A stretch of 64,000 bases of DNA from Hypomesus transpacificus (Eukaryota; Chordata; Actinopteri; Osmeriformes; Osmeridae). How positions within the stretch are numbered: position 1 is the first letter of the stretch; each line of letters starts with the position of its first letter. Where the stretch lies: contig NC_061072.1 of assembly GCF_021917145.1 (NCBI RefSeq), forward strand, positions 9,744,805-9,808,804. Direction: 5' to 3'. The notes below the pieces were generated by a model that was not told where the DNA came from, ran no database searches, and saw only the letters and a program-made list of their open reading frames with translations. This document shows positions 6,024-57,647 of the stretch, piece by piece. The position numbers and the translations under genes are program-made.

Positions 6024-6857
6024 CCTGGAACAGCCTATGTGCCTCCTTCAAGGCTCATCGAAGGAGGGACCACAGTGTTCAGGGACCACAGCTTCACCAT
6101 CACCTGCTCCATCCAGCCACAGTACCAAGGAGGCTCCTTCCACCTCACCTTCACTGGCTCCAACACAACCCTGACACACACCCTCACAGCTGTGCCAACT
6201 TCCTGTTTCCTGCTGCAGACCACGCCCACCAAAGCAACTACAGCTGTGTTTATGAAGTCTATGTTTTCTCTCATAACTTCACCTCTGAGAGAGAGCTCCT
6301 CTCTCTCACTGTTGCAGGTAAGTAAGAAAAGATTTTCACAACCACAACCTGCAACGTTTTAGTCTGTCTTAAGGGTTATTCACACTTTTTTGGATAATAG
6401 TTGTGGTTGGTTTTAAGTGAATTTAACTGTCAGTCATATGAGTCCTGTGGTGATCTGGGGATAACCCCAGAATGTGTCAATAGCAGTCACCGAGGTTACT
6501 GTTCATCTCCACACACTAAAAACAAGTGGCTGCACTTTAGATTGTACATGGAAGGTACAGGGTGTGTCTGTTCCTTGGTAGTTGAGCTGATCTGATTATT
6601 ATTTATCCCTTTATTTGCTGTGTTTCTGTTCCAGCCAATCCTCTGCCAGCTTTCATCATCAGAGTGGTGGTGGTGTTGCTGACTCTTCTGATGTCCAACA
6701 CTGCCCTCTATCTGTACTTTAAGGTACTGTAGTTTGTTCGCAAGGGAAAATATTCCTTCCTCCCCCTTTTCCTGACTCTGTTGTGTCTCTCCAGACTACC
6801 AGGAAGCCTGCAGAGAGGGGGAGCATGCAGCATGGTCTCCCTGCATTCCAGTGCTGA
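6020..6857 (+). pseudogene. 3' fragment of an Ig-domain transmembrane receptor gene, frameshifted
   Basis: Three exon-like blocks remain. 6020-6317 encodes an Ig-like domain: it begins EGGTTVFRDHSFTITCSIQP and, after a frame change near 6196, continues in another frame with the canonical SNYSCVYEVYVFS ending. 6635-6723 encodes a transmembrane stretch (FIIRVVVVLLTLLM). 6795-6857 encodes a short cytoplasmic tail ending in TGA. The splice sites are intact (GCAG/GTAAGT, TTCCAG, AAG/GTACTG, CTCCAG) with matching phases, and an AATAAA lies at 7059. The sequence resembles the single-Ig cell-surface receptor genes abundant in fish immune gene families, but I cannot name a member. No signal peptide or further Ig exon is visible upstream, only repeats. 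The frameshift and the missing 5' end make it a pseudogene fragment; a sequencing error at the shift would not restore the 5' part. Confidence 0.65.
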
Positions 6858-8851: not shown

Positions 8852-9833
8852 GGGGAGACCGGGGTTGGTTGGCACACTTTTCACTGACTGCCATATTTCT
8901 CTGGCATCATTTATGATAGAATATTCTAACCAGCAGCAAATGAAACGTTATGGTCTAAGCCATAATTAAATATGTTTACAAGTACACAAATATTTGTTTT
9001 AAATGTGGTGATTTGAGATTTAAATCATGTTGTGCATTTGTGCCAACCAGCCCCATCACGGGGTTGGTTGGCACACAATATGGGGTTGGTTGGCACAATG
9101 TTAAAATGCTATAGTTACACAAAATGAAGCAAGCAATAGAAACAATTTGAACATTTAATAAAAGAGTGTAACCAATTAATCATTCTATAACATGTTTTAT
9201 GCAATTTATTAGAAGGAATGTATGTATTAAACCTAAACCTATGCCTAATCCTCAGAATCAGGCAAAAAGACTGAAGAACGGAATGTTGACAACAACATTC
9301 TTATTAGACAACATTTAAAAGGTATAATAACCCCAACAGTAGCCTAACAGTAGCCCTCTTAGTAGCCCCTCTCCCCCATCAAACTTATAATACATGTTTT
9401 AGCACTTTTTGATTAAATTCCTATATCTTCAAAATCACTGTGCCAACCAACCCCGCTCCAATTTAACCCAATTTTGTGATTAAATTATGTTGGCTATCTA
9501 CCATCACTCATCACAAACTTTCAAATTTTAAATGAAAATGTAGCTGATTCCTATGTCTATTAACTACATGTAACATGTTTTAAATATCTTTAGCTGACAC
9601 AGTTTTATAATAAATTCAGTCCACAGACCACTTTTTTACTTTTGATACTATAAAAGTGAAATGTTACCCTCACCAAAACAGTTTGTGATTTTCAGATGTT
9701 TTAACATAGTAGATGAGTGCAGCTCGAGAAAACAAACATTTTGATGTTACAATTTTGTTTCTGTGACCTTCAAAACGACCCAAAAATGCTGTGTGCCAAC
9801 CAACCCCTGTAGCCAACCAACCCCGGTCTCCCC
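8852..9833. mobile_element. 982-bp non-autonomous DNA transposon with GGGGAGACCGGGG termini and TA duplication
   Basis: The left end reads GGGGAGACCGGGGTTGG and the right end is its complement (CCAACCCCGGTCTCCCC). Both are flanked by TA (8850-8851 and 9834-9835). The motif GGGGTTGGTTGGCACA or its complement recurs inside, near 9060, 9083, 9440 and 9790. There is no transposase frame. TA target duplication is typical of Tc1/mariner-type integration; family assignment beyond that is inference. Confidence 0.8.
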
Positions 9834-10342
9834 TAGTTCAGTCGACTGTATAGCCTATTTGTGCACACTTGTTCTTCAATGAAAGTCGACTGATATTGTA
9901 GGCATCAATAGACTGGATGACTGCTCAGTTAATTAGGCCTACAGTTCATTCACAGGATGTAGGGCAACTCAACACTTTGTAATTGTGTAGGGTGGGGCTC
10001 TTTTAACTATCCTCACATTTAAGGTAGACGAGCGATCAAAATATAATGAATCTGTAAACTATGACAACTATACACGCCCGATTGAAGCCCCGCCTCCTTT
10101 CCATGCTCTTTCAATCCGTGGGAGCTAGAGGACGTGCTCGCACAGACGCACACGGCTACTGTGCGTGAGAGACCGGGAAGTGCATATTCTACCGCATCCT
10201 CTCTTTACATCGAACTACAGGCTACAGAATTCGTGTGATATCTGAATAGGCAGATGATTGTAACGATTGGCAATTTTGTGTATTTTTTTACCAAAAATAT
10301 ATAGTGTAGGTGTATAACAGAAAAACAAAAATTGATACAATA

Positions 10343-13300
10343 ATGAACGAGACTGAGCACCATACCCCGCTAGAAGAGTACGATTTCGAGCGAAGGTTCG
10401 ATGAAAGAGTCGCTCTGGAATGGATGCAAGAAAACTGGTGAGTATTCTGTTTTATTTAAAGCATCTGGATGAAGTATGATTCCGGTGATTTTTCACCTTG
10501 GCCGAAAATGTGGAGTGGACCAATCTACAATGCAATGATGTGGTCGTTACGCCATGCGGACGGACACTAGTTCAAACAATGATCGCGAAACTGTTACATT
10601 TTTAATCCGCTGGTAACATTAGTGAACGTGCAGTTTTAGGTAATAGTAGCAATTTTATAAATCTATAAGATCATCCTCCCGCCCCTTTCCAAATGCCCTT
10701 GAGGATGCATGATATGACCGCCTGAACTTCTCCTCACTGTTCATATGTTTAACCGGCATTTTATGATAGTGTTCACATAATGACCGTTACTTATTTGAAA
10801 AGCAGAGGCCTGTTTTACGTTATATCGTGCCTGCATTACGTCGATTAGGCTTTACTGCTTACATTCAGTATATGCTATAGCTAGCTAATCTGTAGGCTGT
10901 CGCGAAAGCCTATTGGTGTCTGGAAATTATACGTTCTTTGTTGTTTTAGAAACGTTTTAAAATGCTTTTAGGTACATCATGTGCTGTTGAGTTAACATCC
11001 TGTTCTTCAAATTCACACATCTAAATTGCAAGCTCCAAAAGCGTCGCCTAGTGTCCGATGAGAAAACTATGTGAACAAGAGAGCGAATTTTCTGTCCTGT
11101 AAAAATGGACCATGAAAAATCTTGTCAGACTACATTTTTGCAAAGAGGTGCATTTCGCACCTCCATGAAGTTGAGACTGTGTTGTGTCAAGGCAAGCTGA
11201 TTTGAGAATGACACTGGCATTGAGTTCTACTGTTGCCTACATTTTACTCCCAGGAGGTTTGGTACCAGAGTATAGCAGATCAAGATCACAGCAACTGCAA
11301 CATGCCAGAACACAGATGCTTTGCTTGCAGGTGACACCTTGCTCCCTGATTCTGTGATTAATGGGCAAGACCTGCTTCAGCATTATCCCTGCTGATTCGT
11401 AAAGCAACCTAAAAAGGCACATTTCTGCTGTCAAGGGACATTCTCCTCTCAGATACCTCAACCACCCTCCTGCTCAGCGCTTTCTGCTCTGTCTCGCTTC
11501 ACCATCTAAGAAGGGGACAGGGAGAGATAGAATAGTGGGGTTAGAATGAGGGGATTTCTTTTGGCCTACAAATCCTTGTGTTTTTTCTTACCTGCCATCC
11601 TCATTGTTCATCCTATCTCTCTAGGATATCTTGAGTTAATGGAAAATGAACGTTTTTGTGCGTTGTTTACCATGTTTGATGTGTTATCTAGTCAGAGCTT
11701 CCATCTAGTGAAAGAGTCTCGATTTGTGCTGCAAATGACCATCTCAAGCTCTTGGCTGAATTGGGTCAAGCAACATCTTTTCAGATGAGTTTGATATTGT
11801 TCATTCAGTCAATTTAGATTAGTGGACACCTCACTTATTTTTCAGCCATCTTTGCTTCAGGGCCTTTCATACATGTTTGTCCAGGAAGTGAGAATCGGCT
11901 CTCATTGCCACCAGCTCCAAGTCGTTTCAGAATGCTATAATACAGATGTTTACAAGCCATATGCCTGTAGGTTGTGAATGGTCTAACTGCTTATCTCTGT
12001 TAACCTCCCACCATAATTACGAACGAGAAAGACTGTAATAAAGAAGCTACTAGGAGTCATGGTGGTCTAGAGCAGAGGTCTTCAACCCTGGTCCTCAGGT
12101 ACGCCCTGTCCTGCACGTTTTAGATGTTTCCCTGCTCCAACACACCCAATTCAAATGAATGGGTCGTTATATAGTTATGCAGAAGCCTGTTAACGACCAT
12201 TCATTTGAATCAGGTGTGTTGGAGCAGGGAAACATCTAAAACGTGCAGGACAGGGGGTACCTGAGGACCAGGGTTGAAGACCTCTAGTCTAGATGTCACT
12301 CTGCTGAGCCCATTGCTACGGTCCACTCCTGGTCTCTGTTTGCTAACCTTGTATGTAACATAATCTGTATAAAGACAGCAATGTATCCATCCATGTAAAG
12401 TCATCATAAGATTTATCTATAGACTGTTCAGTCAGAATGAGTGTAAAACTGGTTTGGTCATATATAACAATGTGCACTCTGTTGATTGTTATTCCTGATA
12501 GGAGCAAGTCGTTCATGTTCTGTGGCCTGTATGCTGCGCTCATCTTTGGAGGCCAACACTTCATGAGGGAGAGGCCCAAACTTAACCTGCGTTGGCTGCT
12601 TGTGCTTTGGTCATTCAGTCTTGCCATCTTCAGGTGAGTGACACATTTTACATTATATTTACATTTAGTCATTTAGCAGACACTCTTATCCAGAGCGACT
12701 TACAGTAAGTACAGGGATATTCCCCCCGAGGCAAGTCAAGGTGAAGTGCCTTGCCCAAGGACACAACGTCATTTGGCACAGCCGGGAATTGAACCAGCAA
12801 CTTTCTGATTACTAGCCCGATTCCCTAACCGCTCAGCCACCTGACTCCCATGGACACACTGTTATGATTATTTTTTTTTGTTCTACTACACAGGATGATA
12901 AATATATATGAACGTTGTTGTGGTACGTGTACAGTTGGTCTTGTTGGCAAAAGGGTGCAGAAAACTTTTTCCCTCACACATTTTCAGGAAGTAACTTTAT
13001 GGCTATGTTTTAACTGACAATCTTGATCTACAGAGGCATAAATAAACATCACTGCAAAATTTAAAGATGTGTATCTAAGTAGAAGATATTGTTGGGAGGG
13101 TTAATGTACTGTGAAACTTCACCTACGTGACGGAATGTTCTGGCAAAGACCAAGGTAAAACTTGAATTACATTCCTCTCTGGATTGGTTAGCAGTGCTAT
13201 GTGTACACAAACGAAGGCCCAAGTTTAGCATGTAGCTATGGTTAGTTTGATGACAGTGTATCCTGCTTACTTATCTTAATAGGAAATGTGGACTATTACT

Positions 13301-21312: not shown

Positions 21313-33412
<12,100 letters not shown>

Positions 33413-35410: not shown

Positions 35411-38400
35411 TTAGAAGTTCAGATTCTTTGCAACTTCCCAAGGAAACTCCTTCCTGCCAAAATGACCGTAGCAAGCTGTCTTCTGGTAGATGGGCCTCTT
35501 CAAATCCAAGTCTCTGTATACATTCAAATAAGATCAATCGTAAAATCATCATTCAAATCGTGTACCGCCCGTATTACATTAACATTTAGTCATTTAGCAG
35601 ACGCTCTTATCCAGAGCGACTTACAGTAACTACAGGGACATTCTCCCCGAGGCAAGTAGGGTGAAGTGCCTTGCCCAAAGACACAACGTCATTTGGCACA
35701 GCCGGGAATCGAACCAACAACCTTCTGATTAATAGCCCGATTCCCTAACCACTCAGCCATCTGACCCCCACGTATTACACGTATTACCATTAACCAACCC
35801 TGAGTGGCTACCAGATGAAAATTATGTGTGGAACATTCAAGATCCTACTCGCCTCACTATGACCCCTGGTCTGAGGTCAAAGTTCTTGTTGACAATCTGT
35901 AACAGCTCCTTCTCATTCTTCTGGGAAGAACCGTAGGTGAAAAGGGATATGGATAAAGGGTGGGCCACTCCAATAGCATAGGCCACCTGTAAGAGAGAGA
36001 CAGATCACTTTGAAATGCAGACTGAGATGGTAAATATCCTCTCTCAGCTTGGCAAAGTTAATTTGGTCCACTCACCTGTACCAGGACCCTCCTGCAGAGA
36101 TTGGCCTTGACCAGGGATTTAGCCACCCAACGGGCAGCATAGGCTGCGGAGCGGTCCACCTTGGTGTAGTCTTTACCAGAGAAGGCTCCTCCCCCATGGG
36201 CCCCCCAGCCACCATAGGTGTCCACAATGATCTTCCTACCAGTCACACCCGCATCACCCTGTCAGAGAAACCCGTTGTACAGTGTATGAGATAGTACTCA
36301 GTACAGAAGTTGAACTAATAATGGTCTTTATTAGCCATTTCTTGGAGCCTGTCAAGGAAACACAGCTTTGCAAATGGGTTGAAAACAGGAAGTGAGAGGA
36401 AGTGGTCATAGACGGTACAGGGGGAGTTTTAACCTGAGGTCCACCAATGACAAAGCGTCCACTGGGCTGTAGGTGGTAGATGGTGTTCACATCCAGGTAC
36501 TTGGAAGGAACCACAGCTTTGATGACCTTCTCTTTGAGAATCTCCTTCTGTTCCTCTAGACTGACAAAGTCATCGTGCTGCACTGAAATGACCACTGTGT
36601 GGACTCTCCTGGGGATGACTGCACCATTCTCCTGGGTGTAGTGAACGGTGACCTGGAGAGGAGAGGGGGAACCGGGAGATAAGATATTTAATGTAGTTGG
36701 TGTAGGCTGAATTCTATTTAGGACTGTATGAGTGTTACTCAGTTTCGACCCATTTGTTCAAACAGTAAATCAGATGTTGAGGGGCAAATTGAGATCTGTC
36801 AAACATCTCTTTGGTCACTGTCACTATCACTCAGAAACTCCAAATAGCTCCTTCAGGGCTCGTCTTCCACACCGGGTCAATCGTTTCATGCTGGAGATTT
36901 TCCAAAGCGCACTGTGCGTAGCAGATGGGCAGGGGGGACCTCTAAAGACTAATCATAGTGGAGTGGAGTTGTGCATGTTGAGTCAAAACCCTCCCCATAC
37001 AGGGCAGAAATAGTCCATGGAATGAGTCCAAGCTTAGAAATGCAAGGTATCTGTGTAAATATTGACAACTGGTGTTGTGTGTAAACGTCTCATGTGACTT
37101 TCCGTTGAAAGATGATAACATGGCACAAAACTTTAAATGGAGACGTAAAAACTGTTTGTGCGGGTGCTCATGTTGAAACCCTGTTAAAGGTCTCCGTGTG
37201 ATTCATGGGGGGTCAGTGAATGACGTCAGCAGGGATGGGCTCAGGAGTGATTGCTATTGGGCAGGCCCCCCAGCATCATACCTGGGTTTTAGAATCGGGG
37301 CGCAGCCATGGGACTGTCCCGTTCCGCCTCAGTTCCGCCATCTTGGAGTTGAGTTTGTGGGCGAGGACGATCGTCAGAGGCATGCACTCCTCTGTCTCAT
37401 CAGTTGCGTAGCCAAACATCAGACCCTGAAAACAAGTAATATGGGCTGTAGAAAGTTTCAAAATCCAATAGAATGTTAAAATTTTTGTCAGTTGGTTTGC
37501 ATCCTTCTCTTATCACAGAGGAAAGAGTGGAAACCTGATCTCCCGCTCCGATGTCATCCTCAGTGCGGTCGATGTGAACACCCTGGGCAATATCAGGGGA
37601 TTGCTGCTCTAGAGCCACAAGCACATTGCAGGTCTTATAGTCAAAACCTGGAAAGACAGAAAAAAAATGTTTAAGGTGCACATTACATACACACAGGTGT
37701 TATCATCTCACAATAATAACAAATATTTGTTATTTCTATAAAGTATTACCTTTATCGGAGTTGTCATAGCCAATATATCTGATGGTGTCTCTCACCACTT
37801 TCTGATAGTCTACGTTAGCCCGAGATGTGATCTCTCCACAGAGCAGAACCATTCCAGTCTTACACACTGTCTCTGTTGACAACACAACACATTTCATACA
37901 GTATTTCGGTTATTTTCTCTCGTTCACAAATGCTTCAACTCTGCTGCCCTCCAGTGGCGAGCTGTGCTCTTTCACTCACCACAGCCAACCTTGGCATCAG
38001 GGTCTTGCTTCAGGTGAGCATCTAGCACAGCATCGCTGATCTGGTCGCATATCTTATCTGGGAAACATTGACGTAACTAAGTGACACTGTGTTACAAACC
38101 AGTTTGTCTGGCAAAGCAAGATAACTGCATTACTTTGATCCCAATGGTCGTTCCCCCAGTTGGGGGAGTGATTTCCTTCCCTGACCTTTTTCTTGCGTGA
38201 GGCTGGGTATGAGGGACTGCCTAAGGTTGGATTTCACCACCCTTCCATCACTGTACTCCTGGCTCATATTAAGTGCTACAGCCCTCGGAATAGCCCTTGC
38301 ATCTGTGAATGCATAGCTCGTGCTTTACTCCAAAGACTATGACTGGCGTTGCCAAAATTCAACTTCGGGGACCATATATATGTTCAGAGCACTGCTACTA

Positions 38401-39267: not shown

Positions 39268-41050
39268 CCTGTTTTCGTCTTTCAGCTTAGATCTAAGAGT
39301 GTGCTGTGAACACTGTGTTGGGTATTATGTCCGAACCTCTTTTGAAAAAGGACAGAAGTTGAATGAGACTCTGATGCTTCTAGAAATGCAGTATTATCAC
39401 CCAGTGCAGAGCCCACCACACTCACATACTCTGTGAAGCAAAGACAACATACACCCTCATATACGCACACTTACACTGAGAGGGGGAGGGGGGCATGTGA
39501 ACCAATGGGTCAGACCATTCAGAAGAGAGAAGAGAGAGGGTGGGATTAGAAGTTCTTGGAAAAACTTATTTAACTCATCATATGCGAAACATTGGCCTTC
39601 AGTGTCAACTATAATATACACATATGACATATGGCATATGTACCAATTATTTCAAATTCCGTCTATATAAATCTGGTGTGCACCCTCCTGGTATATAAAT
39701 AAGTATTTAATTTATTCAGGATTTTCTTTTGATGTTTCCCGCACTCTCGTTTCCCCATGTTCTCTTTTGTAGTAACTGGGGACCCCTGAGTTTCCTGGTG
39801 GGACGTAGGTGACTGTACACAGATCACAGCAGAATTCTATGCAGTTCTGGGGCTGTTGAATGGATAGATTTATTGGCAAAAGTTGCATAATTTAATCATA
39901 TAAATAAATATTTGCAAGCTCTAGCCTACATTTTTGGTAGTAAATGGAAATGTTTTGAACGTTGATATCTTAAAAAATCTCCAACACAAATGTTGAGTCA
40001 AATACGTTTTTGGTGTTCTCTAAAAAGTATTGCATGTAGCTTAGTTATGGGTAGGCTAACTGTTATAAGCTTTCACTTTTTAAACAATCCTTTTATGAAC
40101 CGTGCACGTGTTTGTGTTCTAATGCTTGGGATCGGGTGTTGGTGAGGGGTGAGCTTGGCCTTGCTGGCAGAGCAGTGCGACAGGGTGATCAGTGCTAAGA
40201 TCCAGTTTCCCCTCCAATAGTTCAAGGGAATGTGGCAGCTGTTGGGTGTGTACAACAGTCCACGTCGGTATATTCCGACTGCAGTCCGACTCTAGACAGT
40301 GTGACCAGCAATCACAGATTTCTTTGAACGCAGCCCGAAGAATGATTCGCAGCCGAAACAAAATAAAACTTGATGCATCATTTTGTTATTTACACAAAAA
40401 AAATCTTCGAGGTTTGAAGAATGATCCTGAGTGAGTGTGCTAGATAACACTAGCTATATATCTCTAGACGTATGCATGTTTGTAGTAGGCTTGGACAATT
40501 CAATTTGATCAAACAACAAATACATTGACATAACTCTCATCGAAATAACTTAACCAATAAACTTAATCTATTGCTCCGAAGACCTTGGTCTTGGATTGTG
40601 TTTCAATTCAAGATGGAACTTTGTCGTTTGGAACAAACAGAGGGACCAGTCTTAAAGTGACACTGTTACCATGGGGATTCAACACATTTCCGGATGCATT
40701 TAGTACTGAAGTGAAGGGAAAATACTGGTTTGTTTCAGATCTAATTTTTCATAGATCTAGCTATTTTGGATTCACACAATCCTCTCTTTAAGCTTTTAAT
40801 GAATAATACATCAAAACATATTTCGACTTGTCAGCTGTATTTCAATTTTAAATTTGACAAACTCAACAAACTTATAATTAGAAGCTAATATCGATCTTGC
40901 TAAAATGCTCACAATTCTTGCAAAATTAAGCTATACTTTACTGAAATGATAACCCTCATTACAGCAATGAACATTAATACTCTAGTTAACTCAAAGTTGA
41001 ATTTTAAGAAGCTATCATAATGCAGTATAATCATTCCTTTATAGCCAAAT
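39268..41050. promoter_or_regulatory. Divergent mat1a / dydc intergenic region
   Basis: The two genes are transcribed away from each other from this 1.8-kb interval, the same head-to-head arrangement as human MAT1A and a DYDC gene. It should hold both promoters and the untranslated first exon(s) of dydc. I see no clear TATA box or CpG island. A purine-rich patch lies at 39480-39542. The boundaries are those of the coding sequences, not of mapped start sites. Confidence 0.45.
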
Positions 41051-43386
41051 ATGGACTCTGAATACTTGAAAAAGGGCATGGGAAAATGTCTCACGGAGGG
41101 GTTAGCCGAAGTGTCCGAGCAGCGCCCGATGGATCCAATCGAGTTTCTAGCCCACTGGATTTACAAGTACAAAGAAAACATGGATTATGAGGAGAAAGTA
41201 AGTGACGTGTTGTTCCAACGGCTGCCATTAAGGGGCAGCCTATATCTAGTGTTACCAATACCGTAAGTCACATACTATAACAAAGGCTATATCAAAATGT
41301 TCATGTCAAATTATAAGCTTCCCTGTGCTGTTTATGATAATTAAAGAAAAAGGCACACCAGAGACTACTGGAGCAAGAGCAGGAGAAAGCCAGGAAAGAA
41401 CATTTATACCTGAAGCAAATGAAGGAGGAGGAGGACAAGATCAGGGAGTCGCTGGAGGAATCCAAAGTAAGCCGGGGAACAGAAAAAAAACAGACAACTT
41501 ATTTTGTATTTGAACAACCATAATGGTTTATTTGTGCCATTTTTGCAGCCACCAGAGGGACTGATTGCAACACCTCTCTCGGATCCTTTACCAGAGAGGC
41601 CGAAGACATCCAACAGCCCTAAGCTTGCTGCAGTGGTGGAGGGGGACAACACTGTACGTTTTCATACAAATTCAAGACAGATGTGTTTGTGTTTTGCTGT
41701 TATACTTTTAGATAACACAAGTATGGTTAAGTACTACTGTGTATTATATAGCACAGTTAAAATAAAATACCTGATAAATAATCCCACAATGCACTTTGAC
41801 AAGATACTTACAAACAAGGACCCATTGTGGATAGGAAGCTTAGCAAAACTTTTAAACAATAAATCACTGACTGCCGAGACAGTTCAGAACAGGATTCAAA
41901 GATGGACCTGATCAACCCCATCATCAGATCTCTCAGGGCGTTGGCGATGCGAATGAGCCTCATGATTCAGACATACCCATCATCGCCCCTCTGCAAACCA
42001 AACAGGAAACAGAGGAAATCCAAAACAAAGTATTGGAGGATATCACAGTAGAGGAGGTGGTGACAAGTGTTCCACACTAATATATTTTCTCCTGGTGGTG
42101 GTGCTATCCTATCCTCAGTGACTCAAAACTCCAATTTCTTATGGGATTTTACAGTTCTGACCTTTTGCCTCTGGTGATTTGTGCATGATGACATCATCAC
42201 TTGTCCGGCGTAAAGAATATTGTTTGAAAAATATTAAATGAGGTGGTGTATCTGCCAGGGGAAAGTCGCAGATGATGTAACAGCTCCAGCCCTCACAGAT
42301 CCAACTCTGGCAGAGCCAGAGGAGAGAGACTCTGCCCCTGTCGATCCCCTCAGATCCCAGGTCAAAGACTCTGAAGAGATGCCTGTGGAGAAAACTAAAG
42401 TAGAGTCAGAGTACACCGATGACCAAGATGGAGAAAAGGTGACGTGTTCTCTATTTTATAAAACAATGGCAGAGTATGAGGTGTCTGTTGATATAGATCA
42501 GTTATCAGTTGCTCTGGCATCTAAGGTTTTGTCTGTCTAAATGGCCAACAGATGACTCATAAACCTAAGGCCAGTGAACCTGATGAATCCACACAAGGTT
42601 TGTCACTTTCAGGAAAAAAGAGCGGTGAAGTCAAACCAGATGAAATTCTATCTGAGGAGCCACAAAAAGAAGAGAAAAGTATTTCACCTAATCACCTGGA
42701 CAAAGATAAGGTGATGTTCTACAAAAACTTATTTAAAAACAAATGACCACTGAAGAATAATAGCTACTGACAGAATAGGTACAATAACAGACACCCCCAA
42801 AAGAGAAAGGGAGGAACAAAAAGAATAATGTGACTTGACAGAAAAAAGGAGAGCAAGCCTAGAGAGGACTGGAGCAAGGACAGGATTAAGTCTGAAAGTC
42901 AAAGGTAACGTGAGGATCTGTTAAACAGAGCCATTCAAGACAACAAGCAGCATTTCCCAGTCAGAGAGGCAGCAATGTCCTGAAGCCGAGGAGACGTCCA
43001 GTTATAGAAACCCACCGACAGAAAGAGAGAGAGACAGAGAGAAAGACAGAACAGGGATTGTTATAATACTTTACAAGTGTTCTTCTGATAAACTCGTCGC
43101 AGGAGCCAGACAAAGCAGAGACTAGTGGGGCAGCAGATGACACTGCAACTGCGGAGAGCAGTGATCTTAAATCAAACGTCACACCAATTGTGGAGGGGAC
43201 GGTGACATCAGAGGGGGTACTTGAAAACTCGGCTCCTGTTGATGAAGTCCAGGTGACAGTATCTGAAAGTGCCTTTGAGATTATTTAGTGTTGCACAAAC
43301 AGAATGGCTGTATGACACTAGTTAAAATGTCAAATATTCACTGAGCCTTTTTCTTTTTCAGGAAGAAGAGGCATAACAGTGCTGAT
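41051..43386 (+). CDS. dydc1: DPY30-motif protein (DYDC1/DYDC2 family), ~331 aa, 8 coding exons
   Basis: Exons 41051-41197, 41347-41466, 41549-41653, 41937-42056, 42259-42438, 42552-42710, 43103-43252 and 43372-43386 are all phase 0 and join to 331 codons. The N-terminus [20 protein letters not shown], then [19 protein letters not shown], is the DPY-30 dimerisation motif as found in DYDC1/2. A Glu/Lys-rich coiled-coil stretch follows (exon 2, [19 protein letters not shown]). The rest is a low-complexity acidic tail of Glu, Asp, Pro and Ser. Human DYDC proteins are about 177 aa, so the tail is much longer here. Family members are linked to cilia/sperm flagella and radial-spoke-like assemblies; that role is inference for this gene. 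The exon 4 end is ambiguous: GAG/GTGGTG at 42056 or three bases later. The exon 5 acceptor (GCCAG before 42259) is weak. Choice between dydc1 and dydc2 is uncertain. Confidence 0.8.
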
Positions 43387-44059: not shown

Positions 44060-45470
44060 ATGATGGAGTTATTGGTCCAAAGCGTAGGTGCGGTGGGCGC
44101 GCTGGTTGCCAGTGTATTGCGCTCTTTCACTGACATATTTTTAACTCCACCATTGAAGGCCACCCTCAAACACTTAGAGGACACTGACCTCAAAACAGTT
44201 AAAGGTGGTAAGTTGTTTTACGTTATTTAATTTAGGCCTACCAGTTTTTTCTTCATAAACGTCTTAAAACGCTCTGGATAAGAGCGTCTGCTAAATGACT
44301 AAAACAGCGTTATAGTATGATGACTCATTGAACTTTTCCCTGCCTTGCCTTATTGCACACCCTTTCACCTACTTTCTTCACACAGAACAGAGGACTTTCA
44401 AAGCCAAAGCTCTCTGGGAGAAATCTGGAGCTGTAATCATGGCTGTAAGGCGTCCTGGATGATTTTTGTGCAGAGAGGTACAACAAAACATAGCTATCTG
44501 CATCTATCTTTACATAGCTATCTGCATAGCTATCTGCATCTATCTTTATCCTTTTTTTTTTTGCTGCTTCAACAATGCCCATGGGAAAGGTTCTGCTCTG
44601 ATGTATTGTGGAGGCTTTCGTGTTATGGTCTTACAAGGTGCTTTGTCTTTCTTCAGGAGGCCTCTGAGCTGTCCTCTCTGAAGCCCCAGCTGGATGAGCT
44701 TGGGGTCCCTCTGTACGCTGTAGTGAAGGAGGACATCGGCACAGAGATCCAGAGCTTCCGACCCTACTTCAATGGGGAGATTTTCATGGATGAGAAGGTT
44801 AAACCATAGAGAAATGAGTGGTCATGTTTGGACAATTTCATCAATGTTTAGTTCCTGGGAACCGTTTTAATTGATAAGTTCAACTAGCATGGGACATTGT
44901 CTTCCACGCATGATGCGACTTTTCATGGCACTGCACTAAAATTATGAATGGTGATTAGTACAAATCCTCTTTTTCCACTTCCTTTCTTGTAACACAGAAA
45001 ACCCTTTTTCTTTTTTTTACAGAGGCGTTTTTATGGTCCACGTGAACGTAAAATGGGTCTCTCTGCATTTCTCCGATTGGGTGTGTGGATGAATGGTCTG
45101 CGGGCCTTTCAGAATGGATTCTTGGGGAACGTGTTTGGAGAAGGCTTTGTGCTGGGTGGGGTATTTGTCATCGGAACAGGGCAGCAGGTAGGCACAAGAA
45201 TGGCACCGATATCTCCATCATACTAAACTGAATCACTATCATATGTCCTGAGGAATAAAACCAAGTCTTCACATGTGGTTTAGTGATGTGTCCTGACTCC
45301 TCAGGGGGCAGCGCTGCTGTCGGTCTCATCAGAGCTCACATGCTGTGCTTTTTCCTCAGGGTGTACTGCTGGAGCACAGGGAGATGGAGTTTGGGGACAA
45401 AGTCAACACTCTGGAGGTGCTTAAGGCTGCCAGAAAAATACCAACCGAGCTTGTGACTCTGGAAAAATAA
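44060..45470 (+). CDS. prxl2a: Selenoprotein U / PRXL2A, first tandem copy, 218 aa including Sec75, 5 exons
   Basis: Exons 44060-44207, 44386-44477, 44657-44797, 45023-45187 and 45360-45470 join in phase to 218 codons, with TGA at 44460-44462 read as selenocysteine. The context is AVRRPG-U-FLCRE, where human PRXL2A (FAM213A, PAMM) has Cys. Sec75 and Cys78 form a UxxC redox centre in a thioredoxin-like, peroxiredoxin-like fold. An N-terminal hydrophobic stretch (LLVQSVGAVGALVASVL) is probably a membrane anchor or signal. Other family signatures are GVPLYAVVKE, RFYGPRERKMG, GEGFVLGGVFVIG and LLEHREMEFGDKVN. Two ATGs (44060, 44063) are adjacent; the first is used here. Sec readthrough is supported by conserved coding sequence after the TGA through four more exons and by a SECIS at 45617-45661. 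Selenoprotein U is a known fish selenoprotein family. AATAAA is at 45723. A second copy lies 1.6 kb downstream. Confidence 0.94.
44269..44303 (+). mobile_element. SINE 3'-tail fragment, prxl2a copy 1 intron 1
   Basis: CGCTCTGGATAAGAGCGTCT followed by GCTAAATGACTAAA only, with no tRNA-like head: a severely 5'-truncated copy or a remnant of the related LINE tail. Confidence 0.65.
44460..44462 (+). other. In-frame TGA = selenocysteine codon (copy 1, Sec75)
   Basis: It lies in GGA-TGA-TTT-TTG-TGC, within a fully conserved exon, three codons before the resolving-type Cys. The frame continues through three more spliced exons to TAA at 45468. Confidence 0.93.
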
Positions 45471-45616
45471 CAATGTGCCCCTCAACTCGGCCTCAAGTTT
45501 GTTTAGCAGTTTGTCCACCTTATTGTTCATGATTTCTTGGGTATGGTTCTTACTGGGACGCCTATGGGTCTGTTCTGTGGATATGTATTTACTGTGAGGG
45601 ATTCTCTGATTGTGTT

Positions 45617-45661
45617 AATGATGGTCTGTCTCAAAACTCTTATGAGCGAGCATACCTGATG
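45617..45661 (+). promoter_or_regulatory. SECIS element, prxl2a copy 1
   Basis: The AATGATGGTC quartet strand (ATGA at 45618-45621) is followed by a helix, an AAAA apical motif at 45633-45636, the returning strand and CTGATG (TGAT at 45657-45660). This matches the eukaryotic SECIS consensus ATGA...AA...TGAT with correct spacing. It lies 147 nt after the stop codon and before the AATAAA. The helix has a few mismatches and bulges. Confidence 0.85.
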
Positions 45662-45722
45662 CCTACATTCTGTGTCCTAAACTTCCAACCCACAGCAGAT
45701 CTACAAGCTCCTTAGAAGTTCC

Positions 45723-45728
45723 AATAAA
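45723..45728 (+). other. Polyadenylation signal, prxl2a copy 1
   Basis: AATAAA in TTCCAATAAACATAAT, 62 nt after the SECIS, so the SECIS is inside the mRNA. Confidence 0.8.
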
Positions 45729-47094
45729 CATAATTTGAATAGAGATCATTGTGTACTGTTTGTTTTCAATGTCCTATTTTCAGTTGGTTGACCCCTTTTG
45801 GTTGGGATTAGTTACATGTCTTTATCAACTTTTGTTTCTGTTCAAGGTCCTTGGGCGACTTTTCAGAGGGACTTTCTTACAATGTTTCATGTTTGAAATT
45901 CATGCTACGATTCGCTCGTTCGACTGTCATCAAAATGATACATTTTGACAGTATGGGATAAGTGAGCATGACTGCATATTTCACAAGACTGCATGCGGAC
46001 CCTGGAGCAAGACCAACGTTGGAGAGAGCAAGACAGACCAACCCTTTCCGAAAAGGCTTGAGACGTTAAAGAAAGCAAGTATTTTATGTGATTTGACTTT
46101 GTAAGATTTTAATTGGAAAAAGTTTAAATTAGTTTCTTGTCATTCAGAAGTAGCCTACTTTATCAAAATGATCGACTTCTAGTGCAGAACTGTTTCGAAA
46201 GTCATCTAATGGCGACGAAAAAAATGAGAAGAGGGTGTTTGAAACTGCTTTAGAATATTTTTGTGGAGAAAATGTCATTGTATTTGTATACCGTACAAAA
46301 TTGAGGATCCAACTTTAGCTCCACGTAGCACGAGACTAAAAGGGCATAAACAATTATGACGATTATTTATATGTAGATTAGGCGAAGTTATTCATTTAGC
46401 AGAAGCTTTTATCCAAAGCGTCATATATAGGTCTACAAATACCAGGCCCGCATGTAGAAAATACAGCAGAGAAGTGCAAGTTCCAACTGTAGGCCTACAG
46501 CTTCGCTGTTCAGGAATAGGCAGGTAGGATATGAAGATCCGGAGCAAAAATAACCATCCACGATGGAAACAATATCTAATCAAGTGCAACAACATCTTAA
46601 TCAAACCTTGTCTTTATAGATTATGTCAATGTTTTTATTATTTGATCTGTGCTACGCGGTTGTTGATTCCACCATGGCCATCTCATATCTGCCTAGCTCC
46701 AGACTGATTGTCCTATCAAATTCCTATGCTGTCATGAACTGCAGTTCTCTTGGGCAAAATATGGCTGTGTCAGATTAAACGGTGTAAAATGTTACGAAGT
46801 CTGTTTGTAGGCTTATCAGTGACCTTGTCTAGAATGCCTCAACTGTCTTTCTCAAGGGTCTGAGTCACTGAGGGCTGAGGGGTGGAAAACAGTGTGACTT
46901 AGTCATGCATGCTCATGACACTAAACCTGGCATGTCAGAAATATTTTTAACAATTAAGTTTAAGAATTAAGAAATGAAGCAGACTTTTGACAGCATGACA
47001 TTCATGATGTACTTTCTCCCATTTTAGTTTTCCGCTGGACCCAAATGCTTCTCGACTAGACTGAAAATAATATTTGTTTTCTTTGTACCGGCAG
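45729..47094. promoter_or_regulatory. Spacer between prxl2a copies; likely holds copy 2 promoter and untranslated first exon
   Basis: No coding sequence apart from short frames. A candidate 5' exon ends at 46078 with GAAAGCAA/GTATTT. Joined to the acceptor CCGGCAG at 47094 it would create GCA-ATG-CTG, a start codon split by the intron. A remnant of the SINE/LINE tail is at about 46390-46424. Confidence 0.4.
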
Positions 47095-48447
47095 TGCTGT
47101 CCTCTCTCCTGGAGGGAGGGCTGCTAGGGGTTTGTTGGGACCTGGGCCTTGGTGTTATTGGTGTAGCAGTGGTTGTTCTTTTCCTGGTCAACACTGACAT
47201 CTTCCTCCCCAAGTCTGCCAAGACCAGTCCAGGATACCTAGAGAGTGCAGTCCTCAAACCCACAACTGGAGGTGATGACACCAACAACAAAAAACTTTCA
47301 GATGTCATTCATTATTTTTAAGGGTGCACAATAGCCTGGCAGATGCACATGCCTGCTTCACCTTGATTCAGTCAGGAGACTTTGTATTTTAGCATGATGT
47401 TTTTGACTGTACAGACACTTGATCTTCGACGGTAAGGTTCTGCTTCAGGTCAACTCTGCCTAGGAAACACAACTTGAGACTCAGTTTCGACATTTTCTTG
47501 GCAGATTTGAAGACGATGAAAGCCGAGAGTCTATGGCAGAGTGATGGGGCCATTATCATGGCTGTGAGGCGCACCGGATGATCCTTGTGCAGAGAGGTAT
47601 AGTGTGTGTGAGATTCTGAGTCAGATGGCTGAGCGGTTAGGGATTTGGCTATTAATCAGAAGGTTGCCGGATCGATTCCCGGCCGTGTCAAATGACGTTG
47701 TGTCCTTGGGCAAGACACTTCACCCTACTTGCCTCATGGGGAATGTCCCTGTACTTACGGTAAGTTGCTCTGGATAAGAGCGTCTGCTAAATGACTAAAT
47801 GTTATTCTGTTATTTGTGTGTGTATTTTCACTGTCTTTGGGTTCTTCTGTTTGTCTTTCTTCAGGAGGCCTCTGAGCTGTCCTCTCTGAAGCCCCAGCTG
47901 GATGAGCTTGGGGTCCCTCTGTACGCTGTAGTGAAGGAGGACATCGGCACAGAGATCCAGAGCTTCCGGCGCTACTTCAATGGGGAGATCTTTGTGGATG
48001 AGAAGGTTTCTTTAACTGTATTTTCAGAACATACTTAACCAAGCTTATAGCTTTGTCCTCAATAACAGGAAATTTATTTTCAGCAACGTTTCTATGGTTT
48101 AAAACCCAGAAGAATGGGGCTTGCTCTCGGTCTGTCTCGTTTGACGGTGTGGCGCAACCTCCTTCGTGCTCAGAAGAAGGGTTACCAGGGCAACAAAAAG
48201 GGGGAGGGTTTTGTTCTTGGCGGAGTGTATGTGATTGGAGCAGGGAAGCAGGTACGTTTTTTAGGCATTAGAACATTTGACCCCCAAAAAGTATATTTGT
48301 TGATTCCTGTTGGATGAGAATAGATATAAATTTGATAGTCTTATTTTGCAGGGCTTGCTTCTGGAGCACCAGGAAAAGGAGTTTGGAGACAAAGCTGATC
48401 TGACATCTGTTATGGGGGCGGCAAAGAAAATCCAGAAAGGGAATTAG
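47095..48447 (+). CDS. Selenoprotein U / PRXL2A, second tandem copy, ~224 aa including Sec, 5 coding exons
   Basis: Coding exons 47095-47271, 47505-47596, 47865-48005, 48084-48251 and 48352-48447. The first has no in-frame ATG; a start codon split over the preceding intron (A at 46078 + TG at 47095) gives 224 codons. The TGA at 47579-47581 in AVRRTG-U-SLCRE is Sec (about residue 85), again with Cys three residues later. The hydrophobic N-terminus (LGLGVIGVAVVVLFLV, then NTDIFL) aligns well with the human PRXL2A N-terminal anchor. Exons 2 and 3 have exactly the same lengths as in copy 1 (92 and 141 nt). Exon 4 is one codon longer (168 against 165 nt) and has diverged strongly, with a Lys-rich insert (QKKGYQGNKKGEGF). 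Exon 3 is almost identical to copy 1. A SECIS is at 48774-48820 and AATAAA at 48856. Both copies therefore look like functional selenoprotein genes. Confidence 0.88.
47579..47581 (+). other. In-frame TGA = selenocysteine codon (copy 2)
   Basis: Context GGA-TGA-TCC-TTG-TGC, same position as copy 1. The downstream frame is preserved to the TAG at 48445. Confidence 0.9.
47612..47803 (+). mobile_element. tRNA-derived SINE, prxl2a copy 2 intron 2
   Basis: Full copy: TGGCTGAGCGGTTAGGGATT, GGATCGATTCCCGG, CTTGGGCAAGACACTTCACC and tail CTCTGGATAAGAGCGTCTGC. It is absent from the matching intron of copy 1, so it inserted after the duplication or was lost there. Confidence 0.85.
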
Positions 48448-48773
48448 ATCTAAATATTAGATGAGTGGTTTAGTATATGTAGTGGCCATGAAGTCAAGAC
48501 CATAGCTATGTTTACTGTTCTATCTCGCATGAATAACAAAAATGAATCGAGAAATCCTGTAGAATAAATACAGCCTTGTGTGGATGTATCAAGGATAACC
48601 CGTGGAATTGATTTGTGATTATTCTTTTATTGCTTAACCTTTTTATCATTAAACAAGGAATTAGGCCTAAATGTTCTGCAGTAGTGTGTTGCACAGGTCT
48701 GCATGATGTTAGGGTTAGGGTTAGTTAGGCTGTGTTACTGTGTTGAAGAGATGAGGGGGTTTGCTAGAGTGCT

Positions 48774-48820
48774 AATGATGGTCTGTATCTGAAACCTTAA
48801 TAGGGGGTCAGACTTGATAT
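48774..48820 (+). promoter_or_regulatory. SECIS element, prxl2a copy 2
   Basis: ATGA at 48775-48778, AAA at 48792-48794 and TGAT at 48815-48818. The stem is good: GGTCTG pairs with CAGACT. Its 5' part (GCTAATGATGGTCTGT) resembles that of copy 1 (GTTAATGATGGTCTGT), so the two SECIS elements share descent. It lies ~330 nt after the stop codon and upstream of the AATAAA. Confidence 0.9.
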
Positions 48821-48855
48821 TTTATACTTAGTCCCTTTGTTTACTTTTTCCCTCA

Positions 48856-48861
48856 AATAAA
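48856..48861 (+). other. Polyadenylation signal, prxl2a copy 2
   Basis: AATAAA in CCCTCAAATAAAGAAC, 36 nt after the SECIS. Confidence 0.75.
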
Positions 48862-50403
48862 GAACAAGCATGACTGAAAACAGCCCCAGTCTTTTATTGC
48901 ACAGAAATTAAGAACTACATTTAGATTGACTGGAAGGCCAGTCTGTAAGTATGTAAATTATCAATATCTTTGAGGGTTTCAGGTGCAGTTCAGCGAGTAT
49001 CTGTCAAACCTTCTGTGATATTTCTGGGTTATACAAATCAAATTTGGTTTGATGAGAATTGGGTTCCATATCATTCAGTAACAAGTGGCTCTTCGCCTGC
49101 TAGGTTCACCTCTCATTTAAAGAGGATTGATTAGCATGTCTGACATCCAATGATGCTGAAGCTCTGTGTCTCAGTCATTATGAAGACAGCCAACCACAAC
49201 AAGAAGGTGGAACGCTTATGGTCACCAGTCCCAGGTGAGGTAGGTCATTCAACAGGACATGAACAAAGGTAATACCGATTTTGCTAGTTATTAGTTATTA
49301 TGGTTAGACAAGATCGGCTGTCGACTCATTTTAATGTCTCTCCTGAGTTGAATAGCATGGAATGTCCGTTGACATTGCGAGTTGCCGATCTTACACCATT
49401 TCTAGCCTAAACCTGTATTTTTGACAACACCATGGCTTCACTTTTAAAGTCCCATCAGGGTTGATAAACCTTAATAAAGTGAAACGCGGCAGTACAGAAG
49501 TACAGTCTGTGTAACCTGTTGCTATATGTTGCCGTGAAGGTTCTAAGTGCGCATGCTGTCTTCAGTCAGCAACGACTGTTAGCCAACCAACAGAGTATTG
49601 TAGGCTACTGTATAGCTAATAATAATTGACGTGGATGTCGATGCTGGTAATTATGGTAATTATGTTTGTCCAGTTCAGTATTTGTACAACAGTTTGTAAA
49701 TACACCTGTCACCGGAACCTGTAGCTGTCCGAGGTTCTGAAAAGCCGTAAGCGCGTGGGGGAAATCCGTAGTGACGACACTAGGAACACGCTTATCACGC
49801 ATTGGGTTAAATTTAGTGCAAGGTATCCATGGCATTGACAACACGTGACAGCCTGGAAGTAAGTGGGTCAGGTTGTGGAAAGTCTACTCCCACGAAAAAG
49901 CAAACCTTCTCTGTAGGCTTTCAAAGTTCGTTGGTTTTGTAATACTGGTATTTTCTAAAGTGTTAGGAATTAGCCCATATGTAGCCTACTCTGTATAATT
50001 GGACGATATATATATATATATACACCTTATTCTATTTGTCTATGCCTGTCATCCATAGAGACAGAAGTGAGATGCAACATAATGGGCAGGGATGAACCAC
50101 AGTGTGACTCCAGGGTGGCAGAAAGTCATCCACTATGTCACAAACCCACCTGCCATGGTAAGATCCGATATGTCATACCGAACGGCAAAGCTATACTATT
50201 TGACCCAGATAAGCTCTCATTCCCTTGTCTTCTTCATCCATTCAGACTCAGTTCAAACCGAAGCCAAAAGTTCAGTTTGTTTCATGATTTGAAAAAAGGG
50301 TTGAAACACTAAGCTTCAGTTTTGTGCTTGTGTCCTGCAGGCTCCTCCATCCAGTGCTGAGGCCCAGGAGGAGAGTGTGTGAAAGGAGACCTGGTTACGG
50401 GTC
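48862..50403. promoter_or_regulatory. pdzd7 upstream region with untranslated exons and a short upstream ORF
   Basis: No protein-coding gene. A candidate untranslated exon at 50059-50157 (acceptor CATCCATAG, donor CCATG/GTAAGA) would splice to the exon starting at 50341 (acceptor TGTCCTGCAG), which contains the pdzd7 start. The spliced leader would contain an upstream ORF of 35 codons starting at 50092 and ending at the TGA at 50380. A short TA repeat is at ~50008. Confidence 0.45.

Positions 50404-57647
<7,244 letters not shown>

Follow-up and report, generated by a model that had tools for sequence, protein, structure and literature searches.

Two tandem, probably selenocysteine-encoding SelU1 genes in Hypomesus transpacificus and a conserved stretch beside their UGA codons

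When two copies of a selenoprotein U gene lie side by side in a fish genome, each with a UGA codon in the middle of its reading frame, do both still use that codon for selenocysteine (Sec), and for how long have they done so? The question is raised by a window (the whole stretch of DNA analysed, 64,000 nucleotides in length) from Hypomesus transpacificus contig NC_061072.1, C13:9744805-9808804 in the 437-Mb assembly of 376 contigs that served as the genome searched, in which two PRXL2A/selenoprotein U1 genes of five exons apiece stand head to tail on the plus strand (c1, 44060-45740; c2, approximately 47095-48870). We hold it to be highly probable that both are functional SelU1 genes, that each incorporates Sec by means of its own selenocysteine insertion sequence (SECIS), that they stem from an old tandem duplication and a later conversion at exon 3, and that they belong, together with a third copy on contig C11 (c3), to the SelU1a/b/c set of genes. 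This reading draws on observed features of the DNA, namely the gene structure, the aligned TGA codons, the sequence and pairing of the SECIS elements, the third Sec copy, the paralogous gene order and the pattern of substitution.

Gene structure and active site

The coding exons of the two genes were delineated as follows.

44060-44207, plus strand: c1 exon 1, beginning with ATGATG (translation start at either 44060 or 44063), open frame, GT donor
44386-44477, plus strand: c1 exon 2, containing the Sec TGA, which aligns with those of c2 and c3; GT..AG
44657-44797, plus strand: c1 exon 3, open frame, GT..AG
45023-45187, plus strand: c1 exon 4, open frame, GT..AG
45360-45470, plus strand: c1 exon 5, open frame, TAA stop
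47095-47271, plus strand: c2 first recognised coding exon, no in-frame ATG, acceptor placed before a TG as in c3
47505-47596, plus strand: c2 exon with the Sec TGA, aligned across the copies; GT..AG
47865-48005, plus strand: c2 exon 3, open frame, GT..AG
48084-48251, plus strand: c2 exon 4, open frame, GT..AG
48352-48447, plus strand: c2 exon 5, open frame, TAG stop

All eight introns of the pair (8/8) have GT..AG borders. The TGA is in frame at 44460-44462 in c1 (context VRRPG-U-FLC) and at 47579-47581 in c2 (context VRRTG-U-SLC); in both copies it begins 18 nucleotides (nt) from the end of its exon, and the frame stays open 3' of it, in c2 through three more exons. An earlier note on this DNA, which placed in-frame TGA codons at the UxxC sites at 44460 and 47579 and described the exons downstream of both as intact, was exact on the former and correct on the latter. 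The same exon pattern recurs in c3 (C11, L004 3329-5490), with the TGA at L004 4472-4474.

Spliced and translated with Cys at the TGA, the proteins match the Pfam family AhpC-TSA_2 (72 bits in c1 and 75.7 bits in c2, cut-off 27), and to AhpC-TSA (cut-off 26) they score 27.1 bits (c1) and 22.8 bits (c2). This AhpC-TSA_2 domain is accompanied in each copy by a UxxC motif (UFLC in c1, USLC in c2), and when c2 is aligned to a prostamide/prostaglandin F synthase of solved structure (PDB 9us9), its TGA position falls on the first Cys of the CxxC. That enzyme shares the domain but is only remotely related and has Cys (phmmer E 2.3e-16). Both proteins have hydrophobic N-terminal stretches, which suggests a membrane or secretory location. 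We assign the pair to SelU1 (as opposed to SelU2 or SelU3) on its likeness to PRXL2A and on its mat1a and dydc neighbours, presumably also the neighbourhood of human PRXL2A. The products would be thioredoxin-like redox proteins of the PRXL2A type with a UxxC active site. The mammalian PRXL2A (PAMM, adiporedoxin) is likewise a PRX-like 2 domain protein, with Cys where the fish genes have Sec, and its redox activity needs the CxxC (PMC5150245). For turkey SELU (FAM213A, with Cys in mammals), one cloned transcript has both a Sec codon and a SECIS; this is a bird gene, and the part of the turkey report drawn on here describes no tandem pair (PMC4466519).

SECIS elements and the two ends of the c2 transcript

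If Sec is to be inserted at the UGA of the UxxC redox motif, each messenger RNA (mRNA) would do so through a SECIS in its own 3' untranslated region (3'UTR), and the corresponding features are these.

45609-45669, plus strand: c1 SECIS, Rfam RF00031 (SECIS_1), 37.6 bits (cut-off 35), followed by AATAAA at 45723
48767-48829, plus strand: c2 SECIS, Rfam RF00031, 29.7 bits (under the cut-off of 35), followed by AATAAA at 48856
48563-48653, plus strand: early poly(A) signals of the c2 3'UTR found by pattern scan (AATAAA at 48563, ATTAAA at 48648), 5' of the SECIS

A scan of the whole window on both strands (E <= 10) returned 22 Rfam matches to any family, the only SECIS matches being these two, and within 48448-49000 the c2 element is the sole Rfam match (E 0.00076 over 4227 families, with E <= 5 asked). 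The third copy has its own SECIS (L004 6159-6221, 40 bits), with an AATAAA at 6311. When the three elements are aligned, the AUGA, AA and UGAU columns of the core are invariant, 94.4% of the cells of helix II are paired (slid versions reach at most 50%), and both sides have changed with pairing kept in three of the six pairs, as far as three sequences can tell. The claim of the earlier note that each 3'UTR holds a SECIS ahead of a poly(A) signal is confirmed for c1, where the element exceeds the Rfam cut-off; for c2 it stands in part, as the element is matched below the cut-off and an AATAAA does follow it, but two further signals come before it.

That UGA is a plain stop in both genes, each yielding a short protein, would ask for nothing beyond the standard meaning of the codon; it is nevertheless very improbable in view of the conserved open frame past the UGA, the SECIS in each UTR and the membership of a known Sec family.

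Several points weigh against counting both copies as functional Sec genes. The score of the c2 SECIS lies under the curated Rfam value; the minimum free energies of both SECIS regions do not improve on those of shuffles (z -0.51 and -0.38); the covariation score, from three sequences only, is reached by 44 of 500 shuffles; in c2 the poly(A) signals at 48563 and 48648 precede the SECIS; and 47095-47271 contains no in-frame ATG, so that c2 would need an upstream exon for its start codon. Plain folding was rejected as a SECIS test (it did no better than shuffles), and the Rfam profile, the core motifs and covariation were used in its place. With regard to the start, the coding exon of c2 opens with TG CTG TCC behind a pyrimidine-rich acceptor and that of c3 likewise with TG TAT TCC (47095 and L004 3329, respectively), a configuration in which an upstream exon ending in A may supply a split A/TG start codon in both copies (the slash marks the splice border). 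A/GT donors able to give such a codon exist upstream of c2 (e.g. after 45961), none of them supported. Within 45740-47094, no ATG leads in frame into a donor that scores at least 7/9 (weaker candidates are present, none supported), and a blastn comparison of the sequences upstream of c2 and of c3 gave no match better than E 0.43.

Alternatively, c2 could be read as a decaying copy, or as one that is a Sec gene only conditionally: its SECIS would be weakening (29.7 bits, as compared to 37.6 in c1 and 40 in c3), early polyadenylation would often remove it, and much of the product would stop at the UGA. Besides the early signals and the missing ATG, this account has a precedent in selenoprotein S, where a known splice variant, a minority of the mRNA, lacks the only SECIS (PMC5133445). 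Against it speak the frame of c2, which is open over three exons past the UGA and has a low dN/dS (ratio of nonsynonymous to synonymous substitution rates) at saturated dS, and the SECIS itself, whose core motifs and helix II are kept with compensatory changes. On balance we regard decay or conditional use of c2 as unlikely, and we think that its SECIS, which scores below the Rfam cut-off, is the only Rfam match of its UTR and keeps the core motifs and helix II pairing, is probably real. Should the early signals be used, the resulting mRNA would be devoid of a SECIS and the UGA should terminate translation.

Age of the pair, exon 3 and the fish SelU1 set

Outside exon 3, the synonymous sites of c1 and c2 are saturated (pS, the proportion of differing synonymous sites, 0.754; pN, its nonsynonymous counterpart, 0.323; 166 codons), 82 of the 165 aligned residues are identical, and dN/dS over exons 2, 4 and 5 amounts to about 0.095 (a rough value at such divergence). 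None of the four intron comparisons (0/4) rises above the highest of 200 shuffles, and the 3'UTR comparison does so (24.5 against 16.0), its aligned part including the SECIS. The tandem duplication thus appears to be old, and because the UGA, the open frame and the SECIS persist in both copies after saturation, the two have probably been maintained as Sec genes for a long time; the sustained selection for Sec in both copies, which the earlier note had proposed, is supported by the same saturation, low dN/dS and retained features. Outside exon 3, both c1 (95/166 residues) and c2 (96/165) have more residues in common with c3 than the two have with one another (82/165), which suggests either that the tandem duplication and the duplication of the surrounding block are of similar age or that both C13 copies have evolved faster, as judged from three sequences with no outgroup.

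Exon 3 departs from this pattern through a tract that the two copies share letter for letter.

44642-44760, plus strand: identical 119-bp tract in c1 (15 bp at the end of intron 2, then 104 bp of exon 3)
47850-47968, plus strand: identical 119-bp tract in c2, an exact match to 44642-44760

A perfect run of such length might be expected if the pair had arisen through misassembly or had been duplicated very recently, a notion that is contradicted by the divergence reported above (82/165 residues outside exon 3, introns indistinguishable from shuffles) and to which we give next to no credence. Among degenerate codons for the same residue, c1 and c2 are identical at 42/45 in exon 3 and at 35/79 elsewhere (Fisher p 2e-8), and their longest run of identical codons (39) was reached in none of 100000 permutations. 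Since the shared tract enters the intron, and since codons 19-34, which it covers, are all identical in the pair only (16/16 between c1 and c2; 9/13 for each against c3), gene conversion is the best reading of the 119-bp tract, and the near-identity of exon 3 is best put down chiefly to conversion later than the tandem duplication, and not to selection alone. Conversion is ordinary among teleost duplicates, with a median of 7-8% of post-duplication codon substitutions ascribed to it (PMC10503786). In sum, an early tandem duplication, both of whose copies stayed Sec genes, would have been followed by a conversion that homogenised the start of exon 3.

The second-longest shared run (33 bp, at 44271 and 47767) is no sign of paralogy, as it lies within repeat tails of the UnaL2 type. 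Eight such retroelement tails were detected in the window, of which five exceed the Rfam cut-off and three fall short of it.

44252-44304, 47747-47800, 51449-51502 and 22941-22994, plus strand: UnaL2-type tails (Rfam)
46386-46439, 54827-54880, 35584-35637 and 12663-12716, minus strand: UnaL2-type tails (Rfam)

As those within c1 and c2 occupy different introns, their insertion probably took place after the duplication. The sequence upstream of the tail at 47747 looks by eye like the head of a tRNA-derived short interspersed element.

In its wider setting the pair sits, as the earlier note had it, between dydc and pdzd7: the flanking open reading frames (ORFs) have a Dpy-30 motif (dydc-like gene, ORF 41045-41266) and a PDZ domain (pdzd7-like gene, ORF 52025-52219). 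Next comes an lzts2-like gene in minus orientation, with a Fez1 domain (233.6 bits), and the minus-strand ORFs at about 35.4-39.3 kb we take to be mat1a. The Pfam scan assigned no family to the 85-residue mat1a fragment or to a 379-residue ORF of the lzts2 region. On C11, mat1a-like sequence precedes c3 and pdzd7-like sequence follows it, in an order and orientation matching the window. Because this mat1a-SelU-pdzd7 order and orientation are shared, the C13 and C11 regions are to be seen as paralogous blocks, in which c3 would be the third member of the set; no dydc match for the C11 block appeared among the 60 of 88 matches listed. Between c3 and its pdzd7-like neighbour there are open frames resembling transposases (L004 ~9388-9843, L031 ~3-560), which from their appearance we take to be of the Tc1/mariner type.

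Searches of the whole genome point to the same three copies. The exon 3 part used as a DNA query found three places, these being c1, c2 and one on C11, and c1 and c2 as protein queries had at least 15 and at least 13 matches, respectively; among the matches listed, all fall within c1, c2 and c3 except one on C9 (both searches) and one on C7 (c1 search only). The latter two (C9:11750593-11750793 and C7:9239615-9239833) are distant SelU1 relatives whose matched parts are free of stops, and they may be the genes PRXL2B and PRXL2C in Cys form. A genome search for SECIS elements, which scored 150 of 7581 candidates and missed that of c3 (and is therefore not a census), gave seven matches; five further SECIS-like places among them (C9:137292-137355, C169:66036-66099, C10:8184353-8184417, C3:1011865-1011924 and C10:9925556-9925624; two over the Rfam cut-off) probably belong to other selenoprotein genes. 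In viral contigs, seven stretches fit a pattern and none encodes a relative.

A 2012 survey of selenoproteins reported Sec-bearing SelU1a, SelU1b and SelU1c in bony fish, ascribed SelU1c to the fish genome duplication and SelU1b to a further duplication, and listed three Sec SelU genes in both fugu and pufferfish (PMC3316567). The three smelt copies fit this set, with which they share the presence of several Sec SelU1 genes in one genome and the location of one in a block from a genome duplication; the portion of the survey drawn on here mentions no adjacency of SelU1a and SelU1b, no gene conversion and no UGA-adjacent element for SelU1. Because Sec SelU1 duplicates have been in print since then, the arrangement comes as less of a surprise than the earlier note supposed, and the pair, mostly known in kind, extends the published pattern. 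The fresh lead is the conserved stretch beside the UGA.

Conserved codons 3' of the UGA

In the 23 codons that follow the UGA, codons for the same residue are identical to those of c3 at 21/22 positions in c1 (48/105 elsewhere; Fisher p 8e-6) and at 20/21 in c2 (59/114 elsewhere; Fisher p 2e-4), where it is to be borne in mind that the width was picked after viewing the alignment and that the two comparisons share the identical tract and are not independent. In c1 this synonymous constraint runs past the candidate element described below, as far as the 23rd codon from the UGA. When the entire gene is scanned, the top 23-codon window begins at the UGA in both comparisons (equalled by 5 and 6 of 2000 permutations), and in the mat1a and pdzd7 paralogues of the same two blocks, which served as a control (overlapping frames removed by score), 458/865 codons are identical and none of 488 windows reaches 0.95 (best 0.857).

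The conserved stretch may be a recoding element, and within it a hairpin can be drawn in the spliced mRNA.

44463-44680, plus strand: c1 candidate recoding element, spliced (spacer 44463-44470; 5' arm 44471-44477 plus 44657-44658; 3' arm 44672-44680)
47582-47888, plus strand: c2 candidate recoding element, stem letters as in c1, 5' arm interrupted where exons 2 and 3 meet

The hairpin (CAGAGAGGA / UCCUCUCUG) has nine pairs, 13 nt between its arms, and begins 8 nt past the UGA. Taken over 54 nt from the UGA, the three copies fold with z values of -1.86 to -2.47 (equalled by 35, 66 and 78 of the 2000 synonymous versions), and by z the UGA window ranks 1/67 in c1, 5/69 in c2 and 4/69 in c3 along the coding sequence. 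When 90 nt are folded there is no significance (165, 182 and 469 of 2000), and in c1 and c2 another hairpin takes the place of this one in the best fold; a nine-pair helix, wobble permitted, is found in 3709, 3778 and 3820 of 20000 synonymous versions. The structural support from the hairpin is hence only suggestive.

We give even chances to the possibility that the frozen codons are something other than a recoding element, be it exon 3 splicing enhancers, a conversion involving the C11 copy, codon preference or chance noticed post hoc. The location of the stretch, mostly at the beginning of an exon, would suit such causes, as would the frequency of the helix among synonymous versions, the 90-nt result, the width chosen after the fact and the lack of independence between c1 and c2 in this region; they account less readily for a best window that starts at the UGA in both comparisons and for a control in which no window of mat1a or pdzd7 comes as high. 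An element next to the UGA would have known counterparts: selenocysteine redefinition elements sit 3' of the UGA in SELENON, SELENOT and SPS2, where, as in SelU1, conserved sequence and a possible stem-loop come right after the codon (PMC8704476, PMC4561486). Unlike these, the SelU1 candidate is putative, its hairpin stands only weakly above synonymous versions, and its 5' arm is split by an exon junction. For SelU, a literature search and the portions used here of PMC3316567, PMC8704476 and PMC4561486 yielded no description of a UGA-adjacent element. The fuller proposal, in which an undescribed SelU1 recoding hairpin exists in spliced mRNA only, is frozen in three copies (in the tandem pair partly via conversion) and is joined in c2 by a switch of Sec use at the poly(A) site, we put forward tentatively and consider rather doubtful.

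As for what the locus offers to the study of the family, c2, with poly(A) signals ahead of its SECIS, would be a simple case for asking whether the choice of mRNA end controls Sec insertion. If the element beside the UGA is real, SelU1 would join the selenoproteins that possess one, and comparing the fish and bird copies, which have Sec, with the mammalian Cys forms would be a natural test of what such elements do.

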